A program made the translations under genes and the position numbers. Positions 10,415-41,295 of a stretch of 64,000 nt of DNA are shown piece after piece (position 1 is the first letter of the stretch; each line of letters starts with the position of its first letter). Below the pieces are notes generated by a model. It had not been told where the DNA came from, searched no databases, and was given only the letters and a program-made list of their open reading frames with translations. Source of the DNA: Paramecium tetraurelia. Lineage: Eukaryota > Ciliophora > Oligohymenophorea > Peniculida > Parameciidae. The stretch is from positions 63,153 to 127,152 of the forward strand of contig NW_001799031.1 of assembly GCF_000165425.1 (NCBI RefSeq). Direction: 5' to 3'.

Positions 10415-13400
10415 TCATTAGCTTCTCTTTTTTTGCTATTGCGATAGCGCCATTAAAAATTGATCAATTCTTGGATATTCCATTCTCTTCTGCTCCAACT
10501 ACTCCAATTTCCTTGGATCCTTCGAAGTCAGAAATTCCCTCAAGATTGCCTTCTCCTACTCATTCATCATGGCAATCAACTCCGCCAATTCATTCGGTTA
10601 TTGTTGTTATTATGGTTATGGCTATTACTACTAAATCGGAGGCTACTAAACGGGATGCTGAGCGTGTATGTGCATCATTGGCTATTGCAGAACTGGTTGT
10701 TGTGGAGGAACTTACTACTGAGGCTAGGCTTATTGCATAGCTGGTGCCATCTAACTGGGCAATTGGCTGCCCATTTGATTAGACATCTAGGGCTTTGCTA
10801 TTAGATATATTTGAATACCATAAACATGGGCATTTAAGAAATTGGATAAGGTTAATGAAGGTTTTGTTGCATAGCCTATTGTTATTACAATTGCTATTAT
10901 TATTGCTATTACTAAATGCCGCTCTATTGTTAAATCGATTACATTGGATGCATATTATACTCTTGTCTTCTTTAGAGTCTTGGGTCTTCCAATTGGTGGA
11001 ATGTAACAGGAGGAGCTATCGAATCCAACTATTTAACATCTCAAATATATTTACTAAATTGTAGTTGCTACTTGCATTCTAAGGCCTTATCGGAATGACA
11101 GGTGTGCTATTGATGGGATTTTGATGAGGTTGCACATTCGGTTACTACAATGGGAACATCATCTCTGGTTTGTAAAGAGGAGGGGGAGCGTCGACTGTTG
11201 GTGTCCTTATAGGAATAGGAACAGCAGGTCTTATTGGTTCTAGAGTAGGTTGGACTGTTGATATCTTTGCAAAGCCTATCCTGTCTTTGGAGATCATGGG
11301 TTGTCTAATCTATAATGACATTATGTCATTTATGAGTGTTTTTGGATAGGTTGGTATTTCCAAGGGAACTAATTTAAAGATTTGATCTTTATATAGCACT
11401 TCTGGGTAGACGAATGTGCTTGGTTGTGTTGGCACTTCTTTTTTCAATTCTTTAAATGCCAACTTCCATGGTGTTACCTCACTTACTGTTAAAGATTAAT
11501 ATTTCAACATTTTATCGCCCTCCAGAACAGTCTATTTGAAAAAGGAACTCAAGACTTATTGTTGTTTTCCCTTGGATTGCTATTGTAAAATCTTTTCTTG
11601 TATGAGTTAAAAGACAACTTAATGTGAACGTGGTTCGCTGGGCAAGGTGACATTTTGATCCTTGATTTCTTTGTTGTTGGATTCGATTTATTTCAATAGG
11701 TATTAGAGCAATTTAACATGTTTAATAAAGTAGGGGATGTTAGTGAGTTAATTGGATAGATTAGTAATGAAGTCGATAATGTTTTCTTGTTTATTGAACA
11801 TGAGTGTTTGAATGGCTCTTTTTCTTACATCTCCTGGATGAATGACATTGTTGGGTATAGATACAAATAATCTGAAGAGTAAACTAATGAACTATTCAAT
11901 AATTGATGTGTAGACTGATTAAAATGGTAAGTTATTGTAATTTTATATGGATTGTTGAACCAACTCTATGATGCTGTAGAGTTAGAAAATTGGTTTAGCC
12001 TTGTAGGGATTTTGTGTATAGTCTGAGTAGAGAAGAATATTTTGACCAACAATATTCTTTGAAGTACATTCCAAGATCTCAATGATTAATTTAGATGATA
12101 TCAAATTTAGATGGTAGTATTCTTTGGAATCATCTGTGTATTCAATATGCTTAACTAAATTCTTAGCCAAACTCTTAAGTAAATCTTATAAGTATGTGAT
12201 ATGAGGAATGTCTTCAATTAAATACTAGTAGGATTGAGATTCCGATTATAAGAATTGGCTAACACCACATTCATGATCCACAGCCTTTTTAAAGATCTGT
12301 AGAATTTGATTACGCAATGTTGCAATCAGTAATTTGTAGGCCTTCTCAGTAGGTTAATTATCGCAGTAATCATTTTCAGCATCTATCAATTTGTATATTT
12401 TGATCATGTCTTCATTCAAATGTTCATAATTAAATATGTACATAAATCCACAGTTGCAGAGACAGATGTCTATGGCTTGGGTTAAGAACAATCCCAAAAG
12501 CACCCAATCTTACCTGTATTTCAAATAGAGTTATTGATCTTCTTTCTTAGCTAAGGCCTTAATTTTATTGGAATAATTCTTGAGTTGATCTTCGATTATT
12601 TTGAACAGATGTTACGAGATGTTATGATCATACAATTCCAATAGATTCCTTAAGACTTTGAACATTTCATTTTGCAAAGCTGAATCAAATGTTCTTAAGG
12701 AAGATTACATCAGATTCTATAGACATTTCTAGTCTCCCATGGTATCAATAAGAAATCCAAGGTCTCCATTCTTTGTGTAATTTTCAAATTCATCATCGTT
12801 TTTGCGCATAGGTTTAAACAGCACATTGAATAGGTTATTGCTGAATTAAGGTTTATTTTAATTATCTTTAATCAAGTATTGCATCAAATTAAGAATGTAC
12901 TTTTACTCTTCTTAATTTCTGAATGCTGACAAATACAAAGATTAAAATAAAGTCTAAATCTCTTAACTTCCTTATTGGGCATGCAATTTCAATTAATCGT
13001 TGTCCTCATCTTAAAATGAATTCAGTGTAATAACATAATTGAAGCAATTCCTTAGGATGTTCAATAGATTTTCGACCTTCTATTTGCATCCTCTGAGTCC
13101 ATTTGGCTATACCTTTTATAGAGAGACCCATAAGTCGATGAGGATCTTGCATAAATCATTGGAGTGGAATGAACTCTCACATCCCAATTGTACTCTGAAT
13201 TTCAATCGTTCCTAGATCAACTCTATAGTGTTGAAGGTAAGATCGAAATAATGTCTTAAGATCTATTATTGATTTGGTAGTTTGATCAACATATATTCAG
13301 TCTGTATATTTTTCGAAGTCATGGCTGTAAACAAGTTAATTAATTTGCCAGCAAAACACTCTACTCCAGCTATGACTTCATGTTCAAAGAATGGAATGAA

Positions 13401-16095
13401 ATAAAACTTATTGCAACTACACAACCATTTAAATATTTTGATTGCTCCATCTAAAAACTGTAAACTTTAATAAGGTTAATCGAATGTTCCCAAAAGTCTA
13501 AATTCAGTTTTCAATTCCTCATGAATTCCTTTCTTGTGTTCTCCCACTCCAAAATATTCCTTCAACTTATTTTTATCAGGATCTTGATTGATGGCAACGA
13601 ATTTCAACTTAGCGTGAAATGATTCCCTAATAGCTTTAGTTGTATCTTTGGCCAAAAACAATTCATATGGTTCTAATACACCTGATAAGAGTATTTGAGA
13701 TAACCGGAAATCTGCACTGAATCTGGATTTCTCAGTGTTGACATATTTGATAAAGCGAGCATTGGGTGCTATAAGACGATCAGCCAAAAAGAGTCCTATA
13801 TTTGTATCGCTGTATCTTAGAACTATGATTATTTTCAAAATTTACTATTGATAAAGATGTGGGACATAATTGTGATTTCTACTTCGTGTTCAATTATGTC
13901 ATCCAATTTAGTTACTGACATGATATACAATAAGGCTTCACTGAAGAATTCATTATTCATCAAATGAGTAACAGCTGCACAATTCTGAGTTATTTCATCT
14001 TATTCTTCAGTGTATTATTACAATTAACCTAACAATGATATCAATTCATAATCATAATCAGAACCTAATAGTTTAATGTAAATTTAATCCATTAAATTGA
14101 TCAAAACTAATGATGATTTTATTAAATTTAATAATTATATATCATTGTTTTTGGTTAAGACTCTTATTATCAACTTTAGGGCTGTAGTCTCCTGACAAAT
14201 GACTACAATGCCCCCCTTAATTTATAAGATGCGATAAATCAATTAACAACACTAACTATAATTCTAATTAAGCACCATCATAGCAGCAATGTACTTCATA
14301 AATTACATCTACTTAAACCACATTGCATTTGCATATGTTATACATAAGTCCTTCATCTGCAATATCTCCTTAACCAACTTAAAATTGGCAGTCTTCGTCT
14401 TCTCTGCATCAAACAAACAATACATCAATTCCCTCTGCCTATCACAATAAAAGTCCTTCTAAACAGCGAACAAAAACAAATCCAATCCCACAAGATTCTC
14501 GAATTCCCACTGATATGGTAGATTATTCATTAAGAACTCCATGGTCCCATCCTCAATAAATGCCAATTTCCCCTAATAAACCAAATCAATCATATTCTTC
14601 AACTTCCTGAATCTCACATAAATCTACAATCTGTTCAAAGCCACATGACATGCTTAAACGATCTTCTCATCTTCACTTTTCGATGCCGTATAAGCCAACA
14701 ACTGAAATCCATTAAAATTGCTCACTTACTCGTTAGTAAATTGCTGCTACTCCTGAGTCACTGACTTGCTCTTACTCCTACTCCTGCTTCTACTCTTCTT
14801 CTTATTCTTCTTCTTCTTGCCCTCCTTGTTCTCCTTCTTCTTCTTCTCTTTATCCTTCTTCACTTTCTTCTTCTTCTTCGGTGATTTCTCAGAATCTTGT
14901 GTTTTGATTTCCACGTTTCGAGTTATCAACTCATTGCAGAATTCTACATGATTCATACAATTGTACAAAGTCTCAATCACCTTCAATTTAAAGTAACTAG
15001 GCGATTGTTGTACCTCTATCAGAAACTCCAATAACTTATTTAGGCCTCCCTTATCCAAAAATAGTAAGGCATGATATTTAGAACTGAGTAATTAAATGAT
15101 AATTGGAAATGCTCTAATTGCTGAAGAATAGGATGCATGGATTGCAAAGATCACAGAATCCACAAGTGAAGTAGGTAGCAATTTGTAAATACGATCAACA
15201 TCATTGAAATGTGCAGCTGAATGGATATCTGCCTTTGAATGTTTTAAATGTTTGGTTAAGACTCTATGCATTTATTCCAATTTCTCATGATACAATGACA
15301 CCAATTGTTTATCTACAAAATCATAGTCTTAATCTATTGATTTCAATTCCTTGGCCAAGATTTCAATTTATTTTTATGACTCCTGTTAATTGAATTGTTT
15401 ATCTTCAAGTAATAATTGTGGTTGAATATTATCAACACATAAATGGTAATTCTCTTGGTTGTAAATGTGATCCAAAACCTAATTTTTCTACTTAATGATT
15501 TGCTAATAGATTTTATTATTCAACTGGTTGATTGATTGAGCGTACTCTTTAAATTCTGGCATCGATTACATCATTCAACTCCTGTAACCCAATATTCTTA
15601 CCATAAGTAGGATTGTAACTTTGGATCGATTGTCCTGACATGATTTCACCATACATGCAAATTGTCAGTCGTTTATATTGTCCTCTGAACACTATAAAAT
15701 CGGTGATGTACTATTATTACAATAGATAAATATAATACTGGCTATTCAAGTGTGATAAGGATATCACAATTGTTGGAAGAGATTTCAGGACTTCCAAAGA
15801 GAAGTTGATATCTTGATTATGGTTTGTTGGACTAATAAGATTTAGCAAAAATCTCCAAATTTCGTATTGGCTCTTCACTTTGAGTAATTGTAATCAATTT
15901 TTTGAGATTCTGATGCACATTATAACCGGGTTTGACAATTCTGATCAACTAGACCTTGACAAGTGATTGGAATATGATTTCATCACAGACTTTTCCTTCT
16001 TTGACTTTCTATCTTGTTTGGTTCTGCCCGCTTTCCAGATGCTCCAAGTTATCGAAGTATAACAATTATACAAAGTGATCTATGGAATAACTCAT
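10415..16095 (-). CDS. Virilizer/VIRMA-like giant protein, ~1,850 aa
   Basis: The N-terminus (from ATG 16093-16095) resembles the Virilizer N-terminal domain: LLYFDNLEH, then IRIVKPGYNVHQNL (compare the R-V-IPPGVRAHSSL region of VIRMA), SEEPIRNLEIF, and VFRGQYKRLTICMYG (compare LRGWYNCLTLAIYG) near 15652-15698. A very long alpha-helical, HEAT/ARM-like body follows, interrupted by a Lys-rich then SR/SK tract at about 14762-14880. The C-terminus is Pro/Gln-rich with poly-Gln runs and closes with a short helix before TGA at 10415-10417. VIRMA itself is about 1,800 residues, so length agrees. Introns read include 22 nt near 15509 and two of 26 nt in the Gln-rich tail. One spot near 15811-15835 needs a single-base adjustment that no intron explains. 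In animals and plants Virilizer scaffolds the METTL3/WTAP mRNA m6A writer; the same role here is inferred from this N-terminal likeness only. Confidence 0.6.
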
Positions 16096-18218: not shown

Positions 18219-18290
18219 TATTATATTCCAAACTAATAATTAAATATCTGAAATTTTGTAAAGAAAATAATATTTAAAATAATTTGAGCG

Positions 18291-21200
18291 ATGTTTCTAT
18301 TACTCATGATATCGATAGGCTTTGCCTGCACTCCGAAATCTTAGCATCTGCAATTCTTATACCCCACTTAAGATGAGAACTACAAATTGGATATGAGTGA
18401 GTTATTTGATGGTGCAGATTTAATTTATGTTTGTACGATTGGGGAAGGTAATACTTTTAGAGATAGGGACGTAAGGAGATGTAATGTGTCATAAGATGGC
18501 ATCGATATGAAAAATGCGCTTGAAGTAGAAAAATATACGATTAATCATGATAGACTTCTAAAAAACATTAACAGTGTTTCAGGATACTTCAATTATACTT
18601 CTGTTATTGAGAATTATACAAATTTAACCATTTATGAAGTAGATTACGATAACCACATAATTACAGAATTAGTTAGCTCGAGAATTAAAGTAAATTTGGA
18701 TTGCAAGAGCTTTAGTTCTGCCTTTGCTTAATCAAACAATATAATAACTGATTGCTATTACAATACTGATTTTTAATTAATTTTATTTAGTCAAGGCTAA
18801 CAAATAGTTATTTATGAATTATTTTAAAGCGGGTTTGATATTAATTTGATTGAATATACCGATTTAGTTTACAGCAACAATTACATCATCTATGGGATAT
18901 ACCTAAGCAATAGTGATTCTTATTTACATACATACTATTACAATGAAACAGCCCAATAAGCTAAATTTATAACCAGGTTTAACAGAAACACTTTTACAGA
19001 TTTTTCATTGATGGCTGATGGCAAGTCTGTAGCTATTTTAAATCTTACAAACTGCATTTACATTTCATTGATAGATGACTTAAATCAGATTACCGCATTA
19101 CAACCCTTCAATAAAATCTCGAACAACTAATAATTTTTAGCCATCTAGGCATTCCCCTCATAGTTTTATGGCTAATTAACGACTTCCTTTTATGTTGTCA
19201 CTGACAATTACTTTGATAATATCATTGAATTTCATTATGATGGATAAAACCTCTCCGTAGTACAAATTTATGAGTCCTATTAATAATACACATTTAATCA
19301 TGCACAAAGAATTTTAATCTATTTGAGTACAAGCTTTTTGGTCATCTTTCAAAATGATATTCAAAGTTATTTCTATATTGGAAAATATTCCAATTCTCAT
19401 GAAGAGCAAACGGTCGCCCCAATATATCAAAATAAAGATTTTGAAGATTATGTCTAATTTTATCTAAATTATGAAGGTAACAATTTTTTGAAATTTTCTC
19501 GAAAGATCACTTGGTATCATTTATAACAACCCAAATTAGTCATAAATATCAACGACTAGAATCAAAGTGGTGTAATCCACATTTTTGCTTATGAAAATCC
19601 AGAATTGCATTATGAGTTTGATATTTTTGGATGCAATCTTACTCTTACCTATTAATTGTTAAATTAAAGCAATCAAGACATCTATAGTACTACAAATATA
19701 AGTAAACTCTCAACCGTCTAAGATCTTTCAGAGACCTTCCGTTTGAATGATCATTTCACAGGCCCTTTATTGCAATTAAGCCTAATAGATGACTCATAGA
19801 ATGATTCAAACATTAGTATTTCTATTCCTCAGAGTACAGCCTTTTAAAATTTGAAAACTAACCTTCCAGGATTGTTTTAAAATTATTCTCAATTGTTTTT
19901 TGTTGAAAATTATAAAATGTTATTTTATGCGTGGACAGAAATGAATAATTCTACTAATCTCTACTACACTATCTGTCGAATAGGCAAAAACTAAATTTTG
20001 AATTGTTTACTTAATAAAAGTATAAATTGTGATGTCTCTCAATTGACTACTATATAAATGACTCAATCTAACCCTACAGAGCTAATCTTAGCATTTGATT
20101 AAGGACCTTAAATTATATAGGTTTATTCCTTCTAATTCAGCATTAATCTATCAAATTATTCACAGGGGGTCAATATTTCTGAACCATCACTATATTTATA
20201 CAACATAGGTTACTAGTAATCAATAAATTAATTTTAAATTCTGTATAACAAATTGATAGTACTCAACAACTAGTTTGAGATCATTGTTGTTAGTTATCAA
20301 ACTAATGCAAAATATTACATAAATCAAACTACAATTGATCAAGCCGAAGGATAGAATTACGATATTGTATTCCAACCTATTTAAATTTCAATAAATTAAT
20401 AATTGTATTAATCTACCTTGTTTATTAACAATCAAAATGGTGTCATCACTTTGGAATTATATAACTAACCTATCTAGAACACTATTTGTTTTACTATTTT
20501 ATCTTATCTTAAGTCAAATTAGGATATTTCTTAAATTTTTGTCAGCCAGATGTTTATGGTTCTTGCAAGCAGCACAAACTCACCTCCTTATACAGTATCG
20601 TTTTCCGTATATGATATATCCGATATATCTCACCCCAAATTTTCTAAACCATTACCAAATTGTACGATTCAACCTGGTACGTAAATTCTAGCAGACAATT
20701 ACTTTTTCTATGTAAGATAATTGAATGGTGGTGTAACCATTTACAGTATAGATTTGCCCTATCACAGTTCATAATACTTTTACTTACCGTTGAGTTAAAA
20801 CGAGAGCATCAGCAGTACTAATACAAAGTAATAATCAATTCTGTCGTATAAAAACAACTTATGGGCTAGTTTCTAAAACAATCCCTATAGCTTTAAAGTA
20901 TATTAGGTTACATAAGAATATAAGATGCACACCCTTGCTAATCTTTCCGTTAGCATTTCAAATCCATGGGGGAACAAAAGCATGAACTACGATTTAATTG
21001 TAGTGAATACATACCTATAAATCTCTATGAATTATTCCTAATTTAAGAACAATTCAAATATTAGAAATCTTACGTTTTATGCTAAAGCCAACAGTAACAA
21101 CCAAGTTCTGATACCTCTAAATATGACAAATGTTTCAATGGGTCAAGTATTGGTATATCATCTACTCGCTTATGATAAACAGGTTCTCCAATTTAACAAG

Positions 21201-22700
21201 TCTTTCAATATAACGAATCAATTTATAAACGAAAGTTAATACTTCACATAGGAGATTGTGAACATTACACAAATGGTCAGCTTCTGTACTTCTTTATTCT
21301 ATTAGAATACTTCAGGACTCTATCAAAGTAGTTATGTAATCTTTGATGGATTACAACTAATGAACTACAATTTCACCGAATGTCTTTCTTTGAGTGTAAC
21401 TATTAATGGACCTACCATTTATATGAATTCGATTTGTAAATCTGGCGATGTTGTTACTGTATATTCATTATTTCCTAATTGCGCTTTTAATAATTCCACC
21501 ACATGCAATTCATCTCAGCCTTGGAATTACTAAAAGAATACAAGCATTATTTACTCACCTCCTTTTACCTCAATATTAAAGAGTTCGCAACTAAATCAGT
21601 ATCTGTTCATCTTAGGGAAAATTGGCTAAAACCCTAATTCATAAAAGATTTTTATCTACAATCTTAATTAAAATGCATCTTCAAATTCAACTCCCAATTC
21701 AATTTAATATAAACCATCAAGAACAATCTAATGCAGAGGAGGCATAATCGATTATAATTTTACTGTCTTGTAGAACAAGTCCCTTATCAATAATACGTAT
21801 AGTGGAAGAGGAGTCATCTTTTATTTGTGTCAAAATCCCAGTGAACTAAAATATGTGAGTTTCAATATCACCAATACAACCTTACTCTTTTTTTCAAAAG
21901 TTTCAAATCGAGTCTCAGATGTAATAACTTAATATGTCAACAAATCTAATTCTTAGTTCTTGTAAATCTTTATTTACCTTGTCAAATATGATTAGATCAT
22001 CCTTGTTCTCACTTCAAATAACGTCTACAACTTAGTTATTATTATGAGTTATAGTCCTCTAAGTTTCGCTGAAACTTCACTTCAATTTGAAGATGTCATC
22101 GCCTACATTCCCCCTTATGGTAACTACACCCAAATTCCCCTGGGAGTCCTACAAAATTCATATTTGGCATTGCTATTTAGTCCGCCCATAGAGCAAGGAG
22201 GTAGGAATATTATTGCAATGTATAATATGGAGAAGATCAACTAAACATACAATCTAGCCAACGAATTAAGCTACAATGGCACCATTTAAATGGATGCAGG
22301 TTATCAAGTTGATCAAAAGCGAAACATTCTTCAAATTGCCTTAATCTCTCAACCTTACAATAAGGGTTAATTTTTGCTAATGCTAACAAATGATGGCGAG
22401 AACCTAAATAAAACAAATGTCACCTTATTAGTGTTCAACTTATCCATATATTTTAATTGCACTAATGTAGGTGATTTATCTCCAAGCTATGAATATTACT
22501 TAGTGGCTTCAAATTCGTTTTACAGTTATAACATGACAATATCTATTACAGCCTTACAGCTAAGTAGTTCCATTTGGGCATGGATTTTATTGTTTCTAAC
22601 AATTTTAATATGTGGATTCTTAGTAAGCTAATTTTGGACTAAAATCAAGATGCAAAATTTAGAAAATAAATCAGCTGAACTCTTGGAAATAGAAATGTGA
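18291..22700 (+). CDS. Large secreted / type I membrane protein, ~1,460 aa
   Basis: Starts MFLLLMISIGFACT, a clear cleavable signal peptide, and ends with a single hydrophobic helix (WAWILLFLTILICGFLV) followed by a short charged cytoplasmic tail with KIKMQNLENK, TGA at 22698-22700. The ~1,400-residue lumenal part is rich in Asn, Ser, Thr, Tyr and Gln, beta-strand-like, with dozens of Asn-X-Ser/Thr sites and scattered cysteines (for example CRGGIIDYNF and SICKSGDVV). No named domain is recognised. The frame is open over long stretches, so introns are few. It fits the family of large surface or trichocyst/secretory-compartment proteins of Paramecium, but is not the Cys-periodic GPI-linked surface antigen type. 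The 72-bp gap before it follows the TPR gene in the same direction. Confidence 0.72.
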
Positions 22701-26441: not shown

Positions 26442-29400
26442 TCAAGTTTCTAATTCCTTTGTGTGCAAGAAATCCTTTATAAATTGTTTTATGGATCTTA
26501 TTTTTTGAATAACTCTCAGAGGAATCATCATTATCATCGATCTCGTTCTCCAAACATCTCTCGTCATCTTTATGACTAGAGGCAACCACAAAATAAAATA
26601 AATCACAAATAGCAACACTTCAAACACTATGAACAATGCCAATCTCTATGTTTTAGCGTCATCAATATCTATTGATATTCCAACTTACAGTTTTTCCATC
26701 AAATATCTAAATGTGCCTAAATTTAGAATTCATATGTACCTTTATTATAGACCTCCTGAATTACTCTGGCTTCCTTAGACTAATTGAAATTAACTAAATT
26801 GAGAATATAATTGCTAATATTATCAGAGTTTTTTGTAATGTTCTTAAAAGTAGTAAACCCTCTTGCTATAGTAGTAAAATTGGCTTTCGAGTTGTTCCAA
26901 AATTAATCATATATCGTCATAGTATATCTCAAATTCTCAAAGTATCTTGCCAATCCTACAGCCATACCCTAATAAATAGCACCATCAGCTAAAACTTAAC
27001 AATCTGTCTCTTTAATTTCCTCCAAATAGGAGGCAAGGATTGTACATGGTTAAAGCATAAATACCTCTTTGAAGGCTGTTTAATATATTGAATTTGTAAT
27101 ATCAGTATTAAGGGAATGCTCTTGATGAATAGAGGAATCAAGAGCATAAAGTTTATCTATGTTCTATTTTACTTTTGTGTAAGAGTCTTCATTTTCGATT
27201 GTGATATTTCTATTAATATATAAAGAACTTTAAGCATTATCTGAAAATCTATAAAAACCTTCAGCTCTACTTGTAGCATTAATTTCTGGAACTAATTAAG
27301 CTAAATTGCTAAGCAATGTATCACTCATGAAAAAATTAAAAATAAAGTAAGCCTATAGAATAAGAATTACAAAAGCGAATGCAAAAATGTAGTTTCTTTA
27401 ATCTTTGTTTGTATTTTTGAATTTTTTCTTCTTTCTCTTGCTTTTTAGAGTTTTGTTTAATTCCTCCTACTCTTCCTTCTCTAATTCTTCTAATTCTGAT
27501 AAGACATCATCGTCCTCACCTAATTAGAGGTTAGATATAAAATTTTCACTTTTGTTGTATAAATACTTAACCGTTTTATCTGGAATATCCAAGAACATTG
27601 AAAGAATTTCTTCTTATATTTTATTGACTGAGAGTGTTATGATCGTCAACATCAACAATCCTAGACCTAAGGCTCCTGCTGATATTCCTAAAATTATTTG
27701 AAATGTCTCCTTTTTTTCTTTAGTTTTAACTATCATTCCTTCTGCATATAGATTGCTTGAATTTCTCATTTAAAACACTAAATCATTGAGCAAATTGTAA
27801 ATAATAAACTGAACATCAGCATCTTCATATACAATCTAAGATAGCGATTTATCCCTTATGTTTAATGCCTTACTAACTATTTATTAAGTAGCTTCCATTA
27901 AATCGTAATTTTGATATTGTTCTCCAAATTTCATCTTAACGACATTCTCACTCTGCAATTCTTTTAATTGATCACTTATGTATATATTTGATAACATTAA
28001 GTTTTTATTCAATTAAGAAACTAATTAGATCGAATTATTAAGCTTTGTCTTTTGAACTGTTTCAAATGCTGTTCTTGCTTCTGTTGTGTTGATTTAAAAA
28101 ATATTTAAATTTAACATTTATAGATTCTGCACTGAAGTTAATATTGAATGTAATTCAGCTGTTCTTAAATTAGTGTATTCAACCAACTCCAAAGTTGAAT
28201 AAATTTCATTATATTGAGCCTAACATACAAAAAAATCTGAAAAACTAAGTGCTACTAAAAGTAATATAATAAAATTTGCTGTCCAAGTTAATTTTTTTAT
28301 TACTTAAGGTGTGATTTAATTATCGACAACCGTAGAAAGATTTTTTCTTGATTTAAATATGTTATTAAAATCCTACATTTATCCTTCCTAATCATTGTCC
28401 ACATCTTGCTATCTCTAAAATACACTTCTTCCTTGTTAATCTTCTTCTTCAGATATTTAATCATCTCTATCATCGATCTCTTAAACTCTATTTTCAAAGA
28501 GTCTCACTATTTTTATGCCTTCTGCATAATTTATTTTCGATACTATTAAGACATTACCATCTTCTGACTTTTCTGACTTAATTTGAGATTTGATTAAGTC
28601 AGCGCCTGGCTATACTGATGAAATCATTGAAGACTGATCATTTTATTCCCATAGAATAGTTTAATCCACCCTTTGAGAATTGGTATCGCTTACGTATTCC
28701 CCTTAATATAAGAACTTCGATGGGTTGAATTTAAATTGCATAGTATTTGTCAGTACTTTTTAATGGGGTATATTAATTTCTAAATTCATACTCATCTCCT
28801 AGATCTATTATTCCAATTTCACAATATAGCCTACCACCTGATCTCCATGTTCATTGAATATTTCAGAGGTAAAACATTAAAATTAGATTGTCTCACCCTT
28901 TTTCTCTGCTTCTTCAAACTCCTAAGATGCACTGACAGCAGATGAAGTGTTCAAATTGAACAATATTTGACCGCCTATTTTGGATAGGAATAACTATTTT
29001 TGTTATTGGTAATTTGGAAATAATTCGGAGATAGAGGTTTTCTTATGAGATATCTACTTAGAGTCGAGATTTAATAAGGGGATACAAGTTGATGAAATTG
29101 AATCTATTATTTCTTCATTGTCTAATATAAGATAGCAAGTTGGTTTAAAGCTTTTGAGCACTCTAAACTAGGCAGCTAAGGACACATTCTCATCTAATGA
29201 TTAAATGATTTTCAAATAAATATAGCAGGGCATAATATAATTAGATTTCATTTTAATATAAATTAATCTGTCTTTATAAATGTTCTTATTATCGTTAGAT
29301 TGCAGGAAATTCTCAACGTAAGCATCATGAAATTTAGAATATAAATTAGGCATAAAAATATTGATCTTCCTATTGATCATTTCAGATTTATTGTACCCAA

Positions 29401-31408
29401 ATAGATTACAAGCACCCAAATTTAAATTGGTTATTTAAGCAAATTTCTCTTAAGATGCTGATACCAATAAAATTGGTTGAGATTCATATCCAATCTCTTC
29501 GCTAGTGAAGATGGAAATGGTTTATTTATTTTTCATTTTATTGTTTTATGTTTAAAGTGACTTAGATTTTTCTAATAATTATTCTCCAAAATCTTTATCT
29601 TAAAGTACTTCAATGATGAATTTAGCATATAATCTCATAGCTTTGGGTAGATTTTGAGTCATTTTCTACATTCTATTCCATAATTCTTCAACTTAAAGAA
29701 TAGCTTGATTGATTTTGGATCCAATTTCATTCATTTTGCCCAAATCAGGGGACTCCTCTTATAGTTAAGACCAGAAGTCCATATGCATCAATGTTGCTCT
29801 CTCTATTTTATTTTAAAATTATCTCATATTATTCTAAAATGCTATTTCTGTTGCAACATCTAGGTTTCCAAAGGTTTCATTTTGTGCTGTATTCATTTCT
29901 TCCTCAATGATTTTCTTGTATCTAAAAATAATGAAATCATTATCAAGACTTGGACTCAGTGTTTCAGCTTAGATGAGCTCATTGATGGCTTATTGTCTTT
30001 ATTTCATATTGTCCAATAAGAAAAAGGCATAACGTATTCTGAGGTTGATTTCATTGGGAAACTTCTTAATTTAGTTAAAGTAGATCTAGGCCATGACCAT
30101 GAGGAGATCCAGGTCTCTTTCAATAATAGTGCCTTCTTTAAAGAGTGGTTTCTACTATCTTTGGTTAATCATTTTTTTCTGTTTAAGATAGCAATCCTCT
30201 CTTGTGCATGTTGCTTTATGAATTTCCAAGAAGCCGTCAATCAACAAAGAGCTGTTGGAATTCAATGAACTTTTGTAAAGGAGTTTGAGGAGATGATTGG
30301 TCAGTTGCACAATTTGATCAGGGTCTTGGACTTTGTTTAGATTTAATAGAAGTAAATCGTAATGCAATTTTTCACTTTTGATGATGGCAGCTATCATGAG
30401 AGGTACTCCAGCAATCCAAGCATAGACTGTACCGATGAATAAGACTCCTTCAAGAAATTTGGCAAAGCAAATGAGAATCACTCCCCATAGATTTAATGCA
30501 ACTAGCATAGACCATGCCTTCTGGATGTACAGGTTGTTAAATGGTTGCTCGATGTGTATTTTCCAGAAGACTATAAAGCTGCCTATGAGCATAATCAGAA
30601 TCATCAAGTAATCGTAATTCTTGCCAGTCATGAAAGTATAGCAAATAACCATAACTAATTGGTAAGTAAGCAAAACAGCATTTGCTCTTCCGCTCTTTTT
30701 AGAGGAAGCTTCAGGAGGTTGGTATCTGGGTTCGAAGTAAAGTAATGAGAAGAGTAAGCAAAGAATATAGAATAAAATAACTCCGAAAATGGCTACGACG
30801 GAATGGACAATATGTATATTTACCCAACATTCAACATCAAAGAGTTGGTGCTGGAGTACGCCTGCTGCATTATCGGCACACGACAACATTGAAAAAAGCA
30901 AATCGACGATGGGCATATATAGCACCTATAAAAATAGGGACATTAAGAATCTGAGCAACATGATTGGCCAAGTAAATGAAGATTTAGATTTACTGACACT
31001 GTAGCTCAGCAAAAACATCAGCATCAAAGCAAACAGAAGCAATCCCAGACACACATACATCATAGCCACGAATCCCTAAAAACTAACCATTTCAAAGTAT
31101 GGGGTCAATAGGACATACCTATAAAATTAAATGATCATTTTGTACCCAAAGATTTTGTTCAGTTGTTTTGTTATGATCTCATTTTGCCACACCTTCCAAA
31201 TCTGCCGATTAAAGAGGATATAAGTAATTTGCATATACTGTATCGCGATACCAATGCATGTGAAGGGAATCGACTACTCCTCATCTTTCAACATTAGTTG
31301 GATAACCCGAAAAAAGACTCCTTTCATCTCCACTTGCAATTTCTCAAGTACAGATCGATCTGCCTCCAAGGAACTTTTAGAAGTACCAAAGTTTGACTTA
31401 AGTTCCAT
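26442..31408 (-). CDS. TmcB-like multi-membrane PAS-domain protein, copy 1 (~1,640 aa)
   Basis: First of three tandem paralogues. Starts MELKSNFGTSKSS; a 27-nt intron lies after NKIFG. The N-terminal third has about ten membrane helices (for example VVAIFGVILFYILCLLFSLLYF, shortened to its core IFGVILFYILCLLF) and the motif FAKFLEGVLFIGTVYAW. Next is a cytoplasmic helical region (KIERATLMHMDFWSQL) and a PAS-type sensor module, LGACNLFGYNKSEMI followed by NRKINIFMPNLYSKFHDAY. The C-terminal third holds several more membrane helices around an extracytoplasmic domain, and ends RDVWRTRSMIMMIPLRVIQ. This architecture matches the Dictyostelium 'tiny macrocysts' TmcB-type family, greatly expanded in ciliates. 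A sensory or signalling role is inferred. TGA at 26442-26444. Confidence 0.72.
29495..29865 (-). repeat. Near-identical block shared with the other TmcB-like copies (copy 1)
   Basis: This coding segment differs at roughly 15 of ~370 positions from the equivalent piece of copy 2 (34440-34810), including third codon positions. It encodes the cytoplasmic helical region just before the PAS module. Sequence on both sides is far more divergent. Confidence 0.75.
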
Positions 31409-31430
31409 TTTAATTATTAATTATTATATC
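31409..31430. promoter_or_regulatory. 22-bp spacer between tandem TmcB-like copies 1 and 2
   Basis: Only 22 bp of A/T lie between the stop of copy 2 (31431-31433) and the start codon of copy 1 (31406-31408). Copy 1 must therefore be transcribed from within or just after the end of copy 2. No promoter motif is visible. Confidence 0.5.
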
Positions 31431-34400
31431 TCACTAATCTTAGCTGTGAATCAAAACGCCAATGAAAGATTTTATCATTTTAATCTTCTAAATCACACGC
31501 AATGGAATCATCAAGATCAACCCCTTCGTTCTCCAAATATCTCTCGTCATTTTCATCTCAGCCGGTAACCAAATAATGAAATACACAAAAAATATCAGCA
31601 CTTCAAAAACAATGAATATAGCCAATAACTAAGTTTGAGTTACCTCAATGTCGTATTTCAAAGCAGCCAAGTATTAATCGAGTAAAAATTCAAAAGCAGC
31701 TAAACAAATATTTCAAATTCTCATACCTCTTATAAATTTATTCTGCATAATCCGTGATTCTGTGGTCTGTTTGAAATTATTCAAATTATAGACATAATTA
31801 GTCACATTGTCAGAGTCATTAGTGATATTTCGAAATTGTCCCCAACCTCTCGCAACCACACTGAAATTTGCCTCAGGATGCCCATAAAACATGTCATAAA
31901 TTGTCATTATGTACCTTATGTTCTCAAAATATCTAGCTATTGCTACAGCCATCCCTTAAGAAATCGACCCATCTGCAAATGTTTCACAATACTCAACTGT
32001 TGTATACCCCTCCTTTTCAAATATGTCGCAAGGACTCAACATAAAAATGGATTAGAAAGTGTCATAATAATCTTAATTCACGATTTCAGAGTTCTTTGCA
32101 TGTTCTTAATGCAATTCAGAGTCCACTTCATAATTTAATTGTATGTTGTTCATTACTATAGAGTATGAGTCCTTCCCAAGGATGGGTTCTTCACGATTCA
32201 AAAATAGTTGCCTTTCACAATTATCGACAAATCTATAATATGACCCAGATCTGGCTGTAACGTTTAATTCTGGTATTTACTACCTCAAATTATTATTAAT
32301 AACTTGATTTAGAAAATAACTCAATATGAAATATCCTTAAAAAGTGCAAAGAATAAAGGTAATTATAAGAATTTGAGTTCTGTGTGATGAATTTGTATTC
32401 TTGAACATCTTCTTCTTCCTCTTTGATTTAAGAGTTCTACTCAACTCTTTATTTTCATCCTATTACTCATCATCACTGAAATCAGAAGATAATTCTTCTT
32501 CTTCCCCTACCTATAAGTTCGAGATAAAATTTTCGCTTTTGTTATACAAATATTTTACTGTTTTTTCTGGTATCTCCATAAACAATTGCAATATTTGTTC
32601 CTGTATTAAATTGATCTTTATTATTAGAATTACAATCATTACCAATAATATAAAAAAAGAGCTTGCAGACACTACCATAAAAATGAAAAAGATTTTAACA
32701 TTATTCTCTGACAAATCCCGAATTCCATAAGAATATTAGCTTGTCTCATTACGATATTCAATTATAATTCCATTGTGCATGTTATAATTAATAAAAGCCA
32801 CATCTTCATCATCCAATGTCAAATTTTATAATGGTTTATCTCTAACTATTAGAGCTTTGCTAATTATTTGCTAAGTAGCTTCGATTAAGTCATAATTAGA
32901 AAATCTACTTTTTGAGATTCTGACATTTACAACACTCTTTGAATATAATTCTTCAATTTGTTCATTGATGTAAAGCTCATTTAACATCAATTTTTTATTG
33001 GCTTCTACTAATCCATATATGGATTTATTCAATTCATTTCTTTACTCCTCTTCATACGCAATAGCCTCAGTTTCTGTGAAATTCCATATTCCAATCCTCA
33101 GCATTTCTAAATTCTAAATGTTCATCACAATTTGGATAGATTCTTAATTTCTCAAACTTGCATATGAAATTAAATTTAATGAATTTTGAATATTCTCAAA
33201 TAAATACAATCCTAAGAAATAAGATGTAAATGACAGGGTTAGCACAGCCACCATTAAAATATTGATGATGCTACTCAAATAAATGATTACTTTTGGTCTT
33301 TATTAATCATTAATTGTTGAACTTAATACTTTTCTATTTCTAAATACATTATTCTTTTGGCCTTTCTCAAACTCATCTGGGTTATCTGAATTCGATTAAA
33401 ATACACTTGAATGTTGGACGTCATCTGAATCTGTAAAGCTCATTCTAATATCTTCAATTTCTTAAATTCTATTATCAAATAATTTTAACGTTCTTATCCC
33501 TTCTGCATAATTTATTCTTTCTATCTTCACCACTTCAACCTTTTCCTTCTTTTCAACTTGAGTTTCTTCGCTCATTCTAGATGACTACTCCCAAATAACT
33601 GTTTGATCAACTCTAGCTGAGTTTCCTTCCTCCTGGTTTTCTCCTAAATATAAAGCCTTTGCAGCAAAATATTTAAATTAAAAATTGCTCATGGTTGAAT
33701 TTTGTACAATTAATTATTACTGCATATCAGGACCATAGATTTAACTCTAATCATTTAGCACTTTCTCTAATTTTATGACATATCCAACAACCTAATCTTA
33801 ATATTAATTAGAAATTTCAGTAATTTAAATTTAAAATAATATTTAAGTCTGATCTTGCTAAATCATTAATATAGTATTAAAGATAATTTGAGTTCTAAAC
33901 AACATTAGATTACAAATTCAAACTAATTACGCAACCAGTCTTATTTAAGTAATCATTTCTATTATAATTTGTGAATAGCTCATGAAAGTAGATCTTTTTA
34001 TGACTAATCATCTTTGAATCAATAAACAAGTAACAAATACAAGATGACGAGACGGACTCAATGGCATCATCATGATCAAGAATTAGATAGCATCCTCCTT
34101 TGAAGGTACGCAATGTTCTAAACTAAGCTGCAATTACAACATCTTCATCTAGTTATGATAACGCTTTCATGCATATATAGCAAGGCATAATGTAGCCTGA
34201 CTTTAATTTTATATAGATTAATCTTTCCTTCACAATCTGTTATAAATCATTACTCTAAAATAACATTTCTATATGTTTATCATGAAACTTAGTATAAATT
34301 TATGGAATCAACAAATTTATTTTTCTATTCATCAATTCTGTCTTATGGTATCCAAACAAATTACAAGCACTTAAATTTAAATTAGAAATCTAAGCAAATT

Positions 34401-36333
34401 TACTTGACATTGTAGATATTAATAAAGTTGGTAATGGTTCAAAATTAATCTCTTCGCTAGTGAAGATGGAAATGGTTTATTTGTTTTTCATTTTATTGTT
34501 TTATGTTTAAAGTGACTTAGACTTTTCTAATAATTATTCTCCAAAATCTTTATCTTAAAGTACTTCAATAATAAATTTAGCATATAATCTCATAGCTTTA
34601 GGTAGATTTTGAGTCATTTTCTACATTCTATTCCACAGTTCTTCAACTTAAAGAATAGATAGATTGATTTTGGATCCAATTTCATTCATTTTACCTAAAT
34701 CAGGAGAATCCTCTTATAACTAAGACCAGAAGTCCATATGCATTAAAGTGGCTCTCTCTATTTTATTTTAAAATTATCTCATATTATTCTAAAATGCTAT
34801 TTCTGTTGCAATATCTAGATTACCACTTAGAGCTTCATTTTATGATATGTTCATTTCATCTTCAATTATCCTTTTATATCTAAAAATAGTAAACTCATAA
34901 TCTATGCTGGGTGATAATAATTCTATTTAATTAAATTCATTTAAAGATTATTACTTTTATTTCAAAAAATCAAGTAGATAAAAGGCATAATTAATTCTTA
35001 ATCTTACATTGTTTTAATGTCTTCTAATGTATCCTTGATATATCTCTCCAATTAGTAAATGTATTTAGTAATCTCTCTCAGTGATATTTGCATCCTTTAG
35101 TTTTAATAATCTTTAGTTTAATTGTTTTTTTATTCTAAATACGCAATCCTCCTTTTAGCAAGTTTTTATGTGTACTTCAATAAGTGCATCCAACATAATG
35201 TGAAAATGTTAGTTAGCATGATATCTTGATAGTAATTTTTAAATATAATTAGTTAATAGTATGATTTGATTAGGATCCTCTGTTTTATTGATATTCATTA
35301 ATAATAGATCATAAAGATACTTCTCTTTTTTATATATAGCAAATATAATAAGAGGGATACCAACTAGCCAGGCATAGATAGTTCCATGAAATATCGTGTT
35401 TTCCAGATAATTTGAAAAACACATCATTATGGCACTCCATAACATTAGAGCAGCATACATAGATGAGATTTTCTGTATAAATACATTATTGAATGGTTAT
35501 TCTATATGAAATTAATAGAATGTGATTACTGCTCCAATCATAAGGATGTAAATAGCGACATAATCAAATTTAAATAAATCAATGAATGTAAACGAAATTT
35601 CTAATAAGAGAAAGATAAAACATTTAAGAGTTTTTGCCCTTCCAGATGTTTTGGATAATTGATCTTTGTGATTATATTTTGGTTCAAAGTAAAGCAAATT
35701 AAAAGTCATCGTAATCATGATAAAGATTATGATTCCAAGAATGGCTACAATAGCGTGAATGACATGGGAACCTTACCAACATATGGTATCAAATACAACG
35801 TTGATGAGTTGATTTTTATCATCATAGTGGCAATTGAGCATTTGAAATAAAAGATCAAGTATTGGTAAATAAAGTATAGTAGTAAAGAGGATGAAAATCT
35901 ATTTGAGGATATAAATTGGCCAAGTATATGAAGTGTTGAGTCTAGTAATATTTGTGTATCCAATTAGTAATAACAACATGATGGATATAAGGATTATACC
36001 TATTAATGCATACATCATTGATGCGAAACTCGAAAAGTTGAGTTGTTCAAAATATGGGGTTAGCATGAAATATCCAAAGAATTTATAAAATTGATATGAC
36101 ACTTTCTAGTTCTTCCATACTAAATATAGTTGTCGATGAAAAATGAATGTGAGATATTAAAAAAAGGACATCACTTACAGAAAGATTTGAATTGCAATCG
36201 ACTATTCTTTATCCTTTAGAATCAAGAAGAAAACTCTGAAAATGATCGATTTGAGTTCTGTCTGCAAACGTGTTAAGATATTATCATTCTCAACTGAATT
36301 CTTAGTGGATCCATAATTGGACTTTACCTCCAT
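31431..36333 (-). CDS. TmcB-like multi-membrane PAS-domain protein, copy 2 (~1,620 aa)
   Basis: Second tandem paralogue, start MEVKSNYGSTKNS at 36331-36333, TGA at 31431-31433. It has the same order of parts as copy 1: N-terminal membrane helices (CFSNYLENTIFHGTIYAWLVG), helical cytoplasmic region, PAS-like module, a central pair of membrane segments with the motif VKYLYNKSENFISNL between them, an extracytoplasmic domain beginning near ELNVTARSGS, and the closing membrane helix with RDIWRTKGLILMIPLRVIQ. Protein similarity to copy 1 is moderate in most regions but almost complete in the block at 34440-34810. Short introns are needed at many points and were not all placed. Frame integrity was checked only in parts. 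Confidence 0.68.
34440..34810 (-). repeat. Near-identical block shared with the other TmcB-like copies (copy 2)
   Basis: About 96% identical to 29495-29865 in copy 1. A run of ~175 bp inside it (about 34625-34800) appears to match the segment around 39585-39760 of copy 3 with almost no differences. Confidence 0.75.
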
Positions 36334-36371
36334 TTAATTTAATTAATTGATAATTAATATAGATAAAGAAA

Positions 36372-39300
36372 TCAAACTTCTACATCATTGATCTGAATAT
36401 TCATTTTTATATATGACTTAATAGACTTAATACTTTGTATGACGCTGAGTGGAATCATTAGTAGCATTGATCTTGTTCTCCATATGTCTTTAGTAAACTT
36501 GGCAACCAGAGGCAGCCATAAGAAAAAGTATACTATAAAGATCAACCCTTCAAAAACAATAAAGAATCCTAGCATTTAAGTTTTATGACCTTCCATATCC
36601 TGACTAATCCCTTGGATCATTTAGGAAACGAGAAATCTAAAAGCTCCTCTGTTGTATCTATCTTACATTTCCCTGGTCTCTATCGTTTAATTGAAATTAT
36701 TTAGATTTAGGATATAATTTCTTACATTATCACTGTCTTTGGTGATATTCCTAAATTTACCAAATCCTCTAGCTAAGTAAGTGAAGTTCGCATTTGGATT
36801 TCCCCAAAATTAATCATAAATTGTCATTACGTACCTTAGATTCTCAAAATACCTTGCAATTCCAACAGCCATTCCTTAATAGACTGCTCCATCACAAAAT
36901 AATTAGCATTCTTATTCAGTAATTTCATTTTAGAAATTTGAAATTATTGTACATGGTTGTTCCATAAAAATCTATTTATAAGAATCTAAGTATGTTTGAC
37001 TTGTGATTTCCACATTTTATGAATGTTCCTGATGTATGGACGAATCTAGACTATACAATCCATTGATATTGTTCTTGACAATTTCATAAGCATCTTAATT
37101 CATGATTGTTTGATTGCGATTGAGAAATAAGGATCTTTCACTTATATCTACAAATCTATAGAAGCTCTCAGCCCTAGCAGTTGCATTAAATTCAGGTATC
37201 ATCTAACTTAGATCTGTTAAAAATGATTTACTCTGTAGATAATTTAATATAAAATATCCTTAAGCAAGTAGAATAATTATTAAAATTCCAAGGGTAAAAT
37301 TACGTTGTTCTTTGTTTGAATTTTTAAACTTCTTTCTCTTTCTTTTTGCTCTCAATGATTTATTCAACTCATTTTGGTTTTCTTTTTCTATATCATCCAT
37401 TTCCGAGACCAATTCATCATCCTCACCCATTTGTAAATTTGATAGAAAACTTTCAGCTCTATTAAATAAATATTTAATTATTTTATCTGGGATATCTATA
37501 AAAATTACCAACATTTCCTCAACAGTTTTATTTACTGACACTATGGCCATTATCATAATAAATAACCCAACCCCAAGAGCAGCAGCTGAAATACTTAATA
37601 TCAACAAAAATGTATCTTTGTTATTTTCTGATTTAATTCTCAGTTCATTTGCATATAATGTAGAAAAAGTTCTTAATTAGTATACCAAACTATTTAGAGA
37701 ATTAAACAACACAAAATTGACATCTATATCATCTAATTTAATATCAGATATTGGTTTGTCTCTTATAATCAATGATTTACTCAATAACTATTAAATGGCT
37801 TCTGATAAATCAAACAATTCTGAAATACCCTCACTTGATTTCATACTCACAACATCCGAATTCATCATATTTATTATCACATCACTTAAACTCACTTCTG
37901 TTAGCATTAACTCCTTATTCAAACTATCTACATTACTTATTGACTAATTGAGTTTATTCTTCCACAATAATTCATATGCTTCTTACTCCTTTTCACTTTA
38001 AAATTCCCAAACACCCATATTCAACATCAATAAGTTCTAAATGCTTGTAGTTAGTGTTTGTAGCTCCGCATTTCTTTAATTTTGATTTCTTACCAAAACT
38101 ATGGTGTTATAAATATCATCATATTGTTCATAAATGATGAAAAAATCAGTAAATGACAACACGACTAATATTATAGTTAAGATATTTGCAGTCCAATTGA
38201 CTTTTGTAATCACCTTAGGAATCTAATAATTATTGATTATTTATGATAATTGTTTTCTTGATCTAAATATATTATTCTTCTCATTCAATTCTTCTTATCC
38301 TAATCCATTAAAGTCTTCATTCTAACTTCTCTGAAACACACTTACCCTATCCTCATTCTCTTCATCTGATATGATTTCTGGATCATTTATTTCCTAAATT
38401 CTGTTCTCAAATAGTCTCACCATTATGATTCCCTCTCCATAATCTATCTAACCTTTTTTTTAATTAATATCATCATCAACACTCATTAAATTCTTTTAAT
38501 TGACATTAATATTTATTTCAGGTTGATTAGATGAAATCATAGATGATAGATCACCCTAATCCCAAATTATGGTTTAATCCACTCTTTAAGAGTTCAACTC
38601 AGCCAGAAATTCTCCACAATAACTATTCGCACGAGGATTGAATTTAAATTGTAAACTTAAAACCCCTTGAAAATGATGATGTACATTCAGTTCCTAATTC
38701 ATACTCTTTTCATTTCCATTTATTTCTAATCTAACCACATATCCAATTAATTCTCCATTAGTATTGTTAACTAATTCATTCATATAACATATAAATTGAA
38801 TTTCACAATCGGCATTTTCATCCTTGCTACTTTTATTATTCAGTTATTATTCACTCTTTTTAAAGTGTAAAGTGCCACCACTTTTAGTTAAATACAATTG
38901 CTTTGACTAATCGAAATTTGGAAAGATGTCGGTTAACTTTAGTCTTCCATTTGATATCGATTTATAGTCAATATTCAAAAAAGCAATGCATGATGCGGAT
39001 ATAGAATCTATTACTTCATTAGCATCTACTATCAAGTAGCATGTAGGTTTGAATTATTTTAACGGCCGAAATTAAGCCCCTAATTATAAACTATCATCAA
39101 GCGACTAAATTAATTTAAGAGTCAAAAAACAAGGGAGGATGTAATTAGATTTTTATTTTATGAAAACCAATCTCTCTCTATTGATTAATTTGTTATCATT
39201 TGTTTACATAAACCGATCAAAATATGCATCATGAAATTTAGAATATATGCTAGGCATAAATATATTAATCTTGCGATTTATCATCTCAGATTTCACAAAT

Positions 39301-41295
39301 CCAAATAAATTACAACAAGATAGATTTATATTCATAATTTATGCGAATTTCTCTGGAGCTGTAGATACAATTATTGTAGCATTTGATTCATAACATAAAT
39401 CATCATTATTCAAAAGCGATAACATTGACTGATTCCTTTATTTTATAATTTGCAATTATAACTTTTTAGATTTTTCTAATAATTATTCTCCAAAATCTTT
39501 ATCTTGAAGTACTTCAATGATGAATTTAGCATATAACCTTATGGCTTTAGGTAGGTTTTGAGTCATTTTTTAAATTTTATTCCACAGTTCTTCAACTTAA
39601 AGAATAGATAGATTGATTTTGGATCCAATTTCATTCATTTTACCTAAATCAGGAGAATCCTCTTATAACTAAGACCAGAAGTCCATATGCATTAAAGTGG
39701 CTCTCTCTATTTTATTTTAAAATTATCTCATATTATTCTAAAATGCTACTTCTGTTACTACGTCTAGTTTTTCATTAGTATTTTCACTTTGATTTACATT
39801 CATCTCAATTTCAATAATCTATTTATATCTATAAATTATGAATTCATTGTCAAAACTTGGGTATTACAAATCTGCCTAAAGTAACTCATTAAGTGCTTGT
39901 TATCTTTATTTCATTAAATCAAAGAGAAATAAAGAGTACCGTATTCTGAGGGTAATATTATTTGGAAATCTTTTGATTTAATTAAAATACACTTGTCCCA
40001 ACACCATCAAAATGTCCACATCTCTTTCAGATAAAGTTAGATCTTTAAAGAAAGATTTTAAAATCCTTTGATTATTACCCCTTTTTTGCTTGAGATAGCA
40101 ATCTTCTTTGGCACAAGTTGCTCTATGTATTTCTAAAAAACCATCAATCATCAATTAGGAATCTGAATCTTCAGCTTTATACAATTTGATTAAATAGTCT
40201 GTCAAATTAAGGACTTCTTAAGGATCAGATACTTTATTTAAATTAGTCAATAACAATTCATAATTTAATTTATCGGCCTTCAATACTGCAGCTATCATGA
40301 AAGGTAAACCAAATAACCAAGCATAGATTGTTCCATAAAACAATTGCCCTTCTAAGAATTTAGCAAAACATAATATGATGACACCCCACATGTTTACTGC
40401 AGCCAAAACAGACCATGCTTTAGCAACATGCTTATTGTTATGAGGATTCTCAACGTGCATTATCCAAAAGACTAAAAAGCTTCCAATAGCAAGTATAAAA
40501 ATAAATATATAATCATCCTATTTCCCAACCATAAAAGTATAACAAATAACCATGATAAGTTCATAAGTAAGAAAAATAACTAGAAATCTGCCATTCTTTT
40601 TTGATTATGGGTTCTAAGGTAAATAAAGAGGTTCGTAATATATAAGTGCAAATGTAATGCAAAAAAGATAAAACATAATTATTCCAAATATCGAAACAAT
40701 TCCATGTACTATATGTGTTCCTTACCAACACTTTGTTTCAGAAAATAACAAGTGTACAGACTCTCCTTTTTCATTTATAGTACAAGCTAAGATTGAAAAA
40801 AATAAATCCATCATGGGCATATATAAAATTGATAGAAAGAGCTTAATTAATCCTCTCAAAATCTCTGTTAATAATGAGAAGTTTGTTTGTAATCTGTAAT
40901 TAAGCAAAACTACTAGCATATAACCAAATAACACTAAGCCTAAGCAAGTATACATAATTGAAATTAACCCAACAAAGGAAATCATCTCGAAATAGGGAAC
41001 TAATAATGAATATCTTTTTAATATAATAGTATTACCCTAAAATTCTATGTATTTGTCGTGAGACGTCATAAGTCATCCAAACTGACCATATTTAACGATT
41101 AAATAGGATGTATGTCACCTAAAAAAACTACACAATTATGGCAAAATTGCTTAACACTATAGAGGGTTCATCATTCTTCAATAATAACTACGTGACTTAG
41201 AAGCAAATTAATTTGATTTCATTTATAAATTTTTCTGTTCTTGATTTATGAATTTCCAAAGATTATTTGCCACTGAAATTCGATTTTAATTCCAT
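36372..41295 (-). CDS. TmcB-like multi-membrane PAS-domain protein, copy 3 (~1,620 aa)
   Basis: Third tandem paralogue. Start MELKSNFSGKQSLE at 41293-41295; a 22-nt intron (GTAATACTA...AAAAG) after RILG occupies the same place as the first intron of copy 1, so the gene structure is shared. Recognisable landmarks are LGYSLLVPYFEMISF, the helix set with FAKFLEGQLFYGTIYAWLFG, the PAS-like region around 39100-39300, the segment IIKYLFNRAESFLSNL, and the end RDIWRTRSMLLMIPLSVIQ-type helix (here KDIWRTRSMLLMIPL). TGA at 36372-36374. Its start lies 568 bp from the stop of beta-adaptin and its stop 38 bp from the start of copy 2. Confidence 0.68.
39460..39765 (-). repeat. Near-identical block shared with the other TmcB-like copies (copy 3)
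   Basis: The distal part (about 39585-39760) appears identical or nearly so to copy 2, synonymous sites included, whereas neighbouring sequence on both sides is clearly diverged. Confidence 0.75.

Follow-up and report, generated by a model that had tools for sequence, protein, structure and literature searches.

A probable Virilizer/VIRMA orthologue, in two constrained copies, in a Paramecium genome that also encodes METTL3, METTL14 and an AMT1/MTA1-type enzyme

In the structure described for human VIRMA, ARM-like repeats form a horse-shaped stack that a WTAP homodimer clamps; in the human complex, RNA crosslinks to the N- and C-terminal parts of VIRMA and also to METTL3, methylation is almost lost when VIRMA lacks its C-terminus (construct 1-1586), and the N-terminal SUN domain is described as the HAKAI-interacting region (PMC9652331). 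Yeast Vir1 (Ygl036w), a VIRMA-type subunit of the yeast m6A complex, has diverged beyond the reach of standard BLAST and is described as lacking 'the VIRMA domain', which is thought to bridge HAKAI (PMC10393049); we take this domain to be VIR_N, which the Paramecium protein studied here possesses, unlike its yeast counterpart. Closer to Paramecium, the Toxoplasma protein TGGT1_226660 was recognised as a VIRMA through VIR_N (HHpred), was pulled down with WTAP and is termed divergent, while the Plasmodium protein PF3D7_1366300 is cited in the same paper as a VIRMA that co-purified with METTL3; both organisms are alveolates too, but apicomplexans, and we liken their proteins to the Paramecium one by published description (PMC8354455). 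In Tetrahymena thermophila, a putative VIRMA (printed THERM_00046740, presumably TTHERM_00046740) carries VIR_N (PF15912), shows sequence similarity to human VIRMA, and was found with the linker histone Mlh1 in starved cells only; likened again by description, it shares with the Paramecium protein both the ciliate host and the VIR_N domain (PMC6957481). More broadly, across 231 eukaryotic genomes and transcriptomes, the six MT-A70 families all occur in most supergroups, and the RNA and DNA enzymes evolve largely decoupled (PMC12695648). The novelty implied by an earlier note on this DNA is reduced, a Tetrahymena VIR_N protein and apicomplexan VIRMAs being already in print (PMC6957481, PMC8354455); in the literature searched that names Paramecium, judged by title and opening of the abstract, there was no paper on Virilizer in Paramecium.

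The window, that is, the whole stretch of DNA analysed, is a 64 kb piece of contig C78 (63153-127152), in a genome that was searched as 69.07 Mb in 231 contigs. Translation followed genetic code table 6, under which the long frames of the window are open, TGA being the sole stop and TAA and TAG being read as Gln. On the minus strand, an ATG at 16095 opens a gene whose TGA stop, after removal of five introns, ends at 10415. The features of the gene, with the basis of each in brackets, are the following:

10415 to 16095, minus strand: probable Virilizer/VIRMA gene from start to stop codon, six exons, about 1,844 aa (table 6)
15739 to 16095, minus strand: exon 1, 119 aa, first part of VIR_N (gene model)
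15606 to 15993, minus strand: VIR_N match, residues 35-154, across intron 1 (Pfam)
15711 to 15738, minus strand: intron 1, 28 nt, GTA..TAG, 27 nt in the paralogue (gene model and paralogue)
15546 to 15710, minus strand: exon 2, 55 aa, end of VIR_N (VFRGQYKRLTICMYGE) (gene model)
15503 to 15545, minus strand: intron 2, uncertain, 43 nt, GTA..TAG, 42 nt in the paralogue, both copies in frame (paralogue fit)
13846 to 15502, minus strand: exon 3, about 552 aa, start of the body and K/SR tract (gene model)
14762 to 14890, minus strand: Lys-rich then SR/SK tract, 43 aa (paralogue comparison)
13823 to 13845, minus strand: intron 3, 23 nt, GTA..TAG, same sequence in the paralogue (gene model and paralogue)
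11055 to 13822, minus strand: exon 4, about 922 aa, main body (gene model)
11029 to 11054, minus strand: intron 4, 26 nt, GTA..TAG (gene model)
10819 to 11028, minus strand: exon 5, Gln/Pro-rich tail (gene model)
10793 to 10818, minus strand: intron 5, uncertain, 26 nt, AAAG end, fits both copies (paralogue fit)
10415 to 10792, minus strand: exon 6, Gln-rich tail and conserved C-terminal stretch (NELAELIAMMNEQEKAILREFLTSKDPRKLEQ..) (gene model)

The earlier note had placed a Virilizer/VIRMA-like protein at 14762..16095; its start codon was right, but this span covers only the N-terminal part as far as the K/SR tract and not the whole gene. Its estimate of about 1,850 aa agrees with our models, which run from 1,844 aa (the model that also fits the paralogue) to 1,849 aa (a model for the window copy only), and the motifs that it had listed, LYFDNLEH, PGYNVHQNL, EEPIRNLEIF and VFRGQYKRLTICMYG, are indeed present on the minus strand once the 28-nt intron at 15738-15711 is removed. 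Upstream, the gene is divergent from a plus-strand TPR-repeat gene (ATG at 16126), the two start codons lying 30 bp apart.

When the N-terminal 385 aa served as protein query, a second Virilizer copy was found in this genome, on contig C75, and this copy guided the choice between intron models. All introns are short, at 22-43 nt across the models. Intron 2 taken as 22 nt with a CAG end (15524-15545, 45% GC) breaks the frame of the paralogue, and intron 5 taken as 32 nt with a TAG end fits the window copy only; the 43-nt and 26-nt versions were preferred because the shorter intron 2 and the longer intron 5 suit the window copy alone. For such a ciliate, a length of 43 nt and an acceptor AAAG are both out of the ordinary, so the two introns remain uncertain; both lie outside the VIR_N match. 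At 15503-15545, where the two copies differ in length by one base, there are three readings: an intron longer than usual, a GC-rich intron of 22 nt confined to one copy, and a frameshift. The last of these would make the window copy a decaying duplicate, with a one-base insertion near 15520, the work being done by the C75 copy: if intron 2 were absent, the window copy would indeed be shifted by +1 relative to a paralogue that is open there. We consider such decay very improbable, as the 43/42-nt intron with its TAG end removes the shift in both copies, no internal stop occurs within the 1,648 compared codons of exons 1-4, and dN/dS is low in every one of these exons (0.028, 0.040, 0.042 and 0.038 for exons 1 to 4). 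Over the same codons, the copies are 96.0% identical, with a dS of 0.51, a dN of 0.0206 and a ratio of 0.040. A ratio of this order between copies so similar means that both are constrained, and both Virilizer copies are under strong purifying selection.

The duplication extends beyond this gene. When 14 frames of the window were used as queries against C75 60-108 kb, rows below 50% identity being dropped, nine had a match, and eight of these lay in the same order on C75: 3352-, 6429-, the PP2C gene 7931+, Virilizer, 25533-, 33820-, 36375- and the adaptin gene. Identity was 84% for the membrane gene 33820- and 77% for 36375-, while frame 26702- matched at 52-57%, at the places of its two sister genes. 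No match in C75 60-108 kb was obtained for the other five (589+, TPR 16290+, membrane 18288+, WD 23491+ and WD 46292-), and the counterparts of 589+ and 46292- may lie outside the C75 stretch that was fetched. A collinear block of this kind is what a whole-genome duplication followed by some losses would be expected to leave; together with the genetic code and the short introns, it points to the genus Paramecium. Several features of this neighbourhood were noted in passing. Beside the C75 Virilizer copy, only a remnant similar to the beginning of the TPR gene was seen by eye. The region 26702-41072 holds a tandem array of three related genes, large and of the multi-span membrane type, which have long stretches in common; two of these genes have collinear relatives on C75. 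At 18288-22697, a 1,470-aa open frame shows, by eye, N-glycosylation-like sites and a C-terminal membrane span; it matched no Pfam family at E<=0.001 and nothing in C75 60-108 kb.

Assignment to the Virilizer family was supported by the N-terminal domain. In the first 174 aa, Pfam (hmmscan) recognised VIR_N with an E-value of 6.5e-7 and 29.5 bits, above the curated cut-off of 27.7, as the sole family at E<=10, and the paralogue N-terminus gave nearly the same result (29.4 bits, E 6.8e-7). With a longer N-terminal piece of 378 aa, VIR_N scored 27.5 bits, slightly below the cut-off (E 2.6e-6), and was the best of three families, the other two (E 0.028 and 0.036) being far below their own cut-offs; the complete protein of 1,849 aa gave no Pfam family at E<=10, an empty scan that we attribute to the effect of the HMMER filters on a long, biased sequence. 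A six-frame search of the whole genome for VIR_N had no match, nor had any of 14 control genomes, and this search is uninformative because intron 1 splits the domain; the protein query recovered both copies. Independently of Pfam, a phmmer search of 177,635 distinct PDB sequences, queried with the N-terminal 385 aa, ranked human VIRMA (7vf2_A) first (E 0.0019, query 6-142 aligned to chain 4-128), and the sole other match up to E 10 had an E-value of 0.91. The local alignment to residues 4-128 of human VIRMA scored 106, against a mean of 26.8 (sd 4.5, maximum 63) for 2,000 shuffles, none of which reached 106. The identity proposed in the earlier note is thereby borne out, with a significant VIR_N match and no better match to an unrelated HEAT family. 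That a ciliate protein of no kinship to VIRMA, rich in K, Q and N, merely imitates the motifs might be imagined from the K/SR tract, the Gln-rich tail and the empty full-length scan; however, the match (residues 35-154) overlaps neither K/SR nor Gln-rich tracts, VIRMA came first in the PDB, the shuffles stayed well below the observed score and the paralogue keeps the domain. At the domain level a chance match is already refuted, and we regard this explanation as almost certainly wrong.

The remainder of the protein gave a different picture. For the body encoded by exons 3 and 4 (about 1,470 residues), two-sequence profiles run against the PDB retrieved no VIRMA chain at E<=10: the exon 4 profile matched two sequences, the best with an E-value of 1.4, and the exon 3 profile four, the best being PsaE (E 0.029), partly across the K-rich tract. 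Pfam returned four families altogether for these two exons, none above its own cut-off and none of HEAT or ARM type; the best was RNA_pol_Rpc4 (E 0.0054, below cut-off), over the K-rich part. Relatives of the body were also sought in viral and prokaryotic collections, where pattern matches occurred in 3 and 126 stretches, respectively, none of which tblastn confirmed. Compared with human VIRMA, the Paramecium protein aligns over the domain and is of similar size (about 1,844 aa against 1,812; PMC9652331), but it carries a K/SR tract and a Gln-rich tail, and body similarity is undetectable by sequence. The K-rich and SR/SK tracts reported in the earlier note are present, as 43 aa that are the same in both copies (43/43 residues, with 3 of 129 nucleotides differing). 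This tract could be a putative nuclear localisation signal or an RNA contact.

A VIR_N-like N-terminal domain might sit on an unrelated body and serve another purpose, for instance in chromatin or with linker histone, the protein not being an m6A scaffold at all. The absence of a detectable VIRMA match in the body would fit this, as would the Tetrahymena VIR_N protein, which was reported as a starvation-specific partner of the linker histone Mlh1 (PMC6957481). By contrast, the N-terminal domain, the large size and the presence of METTL3 and METTL14 all fit VIRMA; the Toxoplasma protein, likewise called divergent, was nonetheless purified with WTAP (PMC8354455), and yeast Vir1, which standard BLAST misses, has VIRMA as its top structural match (PMC10393049). 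We hold this reading to be unlikely, and orthology to Virilizer/VIRMA to be the better account.

The genomic company of the gene points the same way. Sixteen MT-A70 family matches were found on 11 contigs of the same genome, and one gene on each of four contigs was typed against the PDB, the genes L010 and L009 by a fragment only. The METTL3 and METTL14 homologues that the earlier note had proposed to search for were both found, in two copies each. L001 (C190) is METTL3, with an E-value of 3.1e-106 and an alignment starting at chain residue 247, against 2.3e-32 for the best non-METTL3 chain, the ciliate MTA1; this alignment takes in the METTL3 zinc-finger region. L003 (C77) is METTL14 (E 1.6e-61, against 2.8e-28 for METTL3). 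The second copies lie on C180 for METTL3 and on C49 for METTL14. Both METTL14 copies (L003, L004) keep a DPPW motif; the animal METTL14 motif is EPPL. METTL3 and METTL14 (L001-L004) are present, like Virilizer, in two copies each, which suggests that the writer subunits were retained together after genome duplication. L010 (C173) is AMT1/MTA1-like, with an E-value of 2.7e-52 to 7f4r against 2.6e-19 for METTL3, 7F4R being an entry of the MTA1c study that solved Tetrahymena MTA1 (PMC9174199). L009 (C186) is related more distantly, its best match being again 7f4r (E 1.6e-19). The cysteine-rich C-terminus of L009 and similar copies may point to AMT2/5; by eye, the AMT-like L042, L043, L008 and L009 are followed in neighbouring frames by cysteine-rich, ZZ-like C-termini. 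Since METTL3, METTL14 and a separate AMT1/MTA1-type enzyme (L010) are encoded in one genome, RNA and DNA writers coexist in this ciliate, as the earlier note had anticipated. Candidate readers are present as well: YTH gave 21 matches in the genome, some of them two adjacent pieces on one contig, and of the eight loci inspected (L019-L026), L019-L022 looked canonical by eye.

The accessory subunits gave less. The Pfam family Wtap, run on the genome without a positive control, produced two matches, both below threshold (E 0.32 and 0.36); they lie in frames of low complexity which, by eye, adjoin a MORN-like repeat gene, and were rejected as WTAP. The human WTAP core used as query, again without a positive control, had no match in the genome. 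For HAKAI, zf_Hakai gave five matches (E 0.12-0.79), all below cut-off, and these were also rejected, as no RING finger was visible by eye in their frames and four of the five are copies of one C2H2 and coiled-coil family. This four-copy family (L034-L037) combines a C2H2 zinc finger, a coiled coil and a KKKNRRTSQEIEKSF(V/I)CPYEKCNKQYGSDVSLNLHIKLKHDGGNKTDREK block.

Taken together, we estimate a probability of about 0.9 that the gene encodes a ciliate orthologue of Virilizer/VIRMA. Against this identity stand the body, which matched no VIRMA chain, the direct VIRMA partner WTAP, which neither Pfam Wtap nor the human WTAP core detected, and the empty full-length Pfam scan. In its favour, the family is confirmed by the N-terminal domain, the very large size (1,844-1,849 aa against 1,812 residues in human VIRMA) and the genomic company; the body is not among these supports. 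If the protein acts like its counterparts in animals, plants and apicomplexans, it would serve as a scaffold in the nucleus. Its VIR_N (SUN-like) domain and long body would keep the accessory half of this mRNA m6A writer together and would offer RNA to the heterodimer of METTL3 and METTL14, both encoded in this genome, and YTH proteins would read the resulting marks. The VIR_N domain, purifying selection on two copies and co-occurrence with METTL3, METTL14 and YTH are observed; what we infer from the analogy is that the protein belongs to the complex, resides in the nucleus, touches RNA by way of its K/SR tract and affects m6A, a role like that of human VIRMA being the simplest reading. A bolder proposal, which we hold to be highly doubtful, is that Virilizer with its conserved K/SR tract acts in an accessory complex in which neither WTAP nor HAKAI is recognisable, and that it connects the RNA m6A writer with chromatin, the site of DNA methylation by the separate AMT1; if true, Virilizer would be a contact point between two N6-adenine systems.

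A Virilizer gene in Paramecium was to be expected from the published ciliate and apicomplexan homologues. The present analysis adds a gene model for the m6A scaffold of a Paramecium-like ciliate, along with a duplicate that is also constrained. METTL3, METTL14 and Virilizer each have two copies in this genome, which encodes an AMT1/MTA1-type DNA enzyme as well; ciliates of this kind are therefore well suited to the question of how RNA and DNA adenine methylation are kept separate within one cell.
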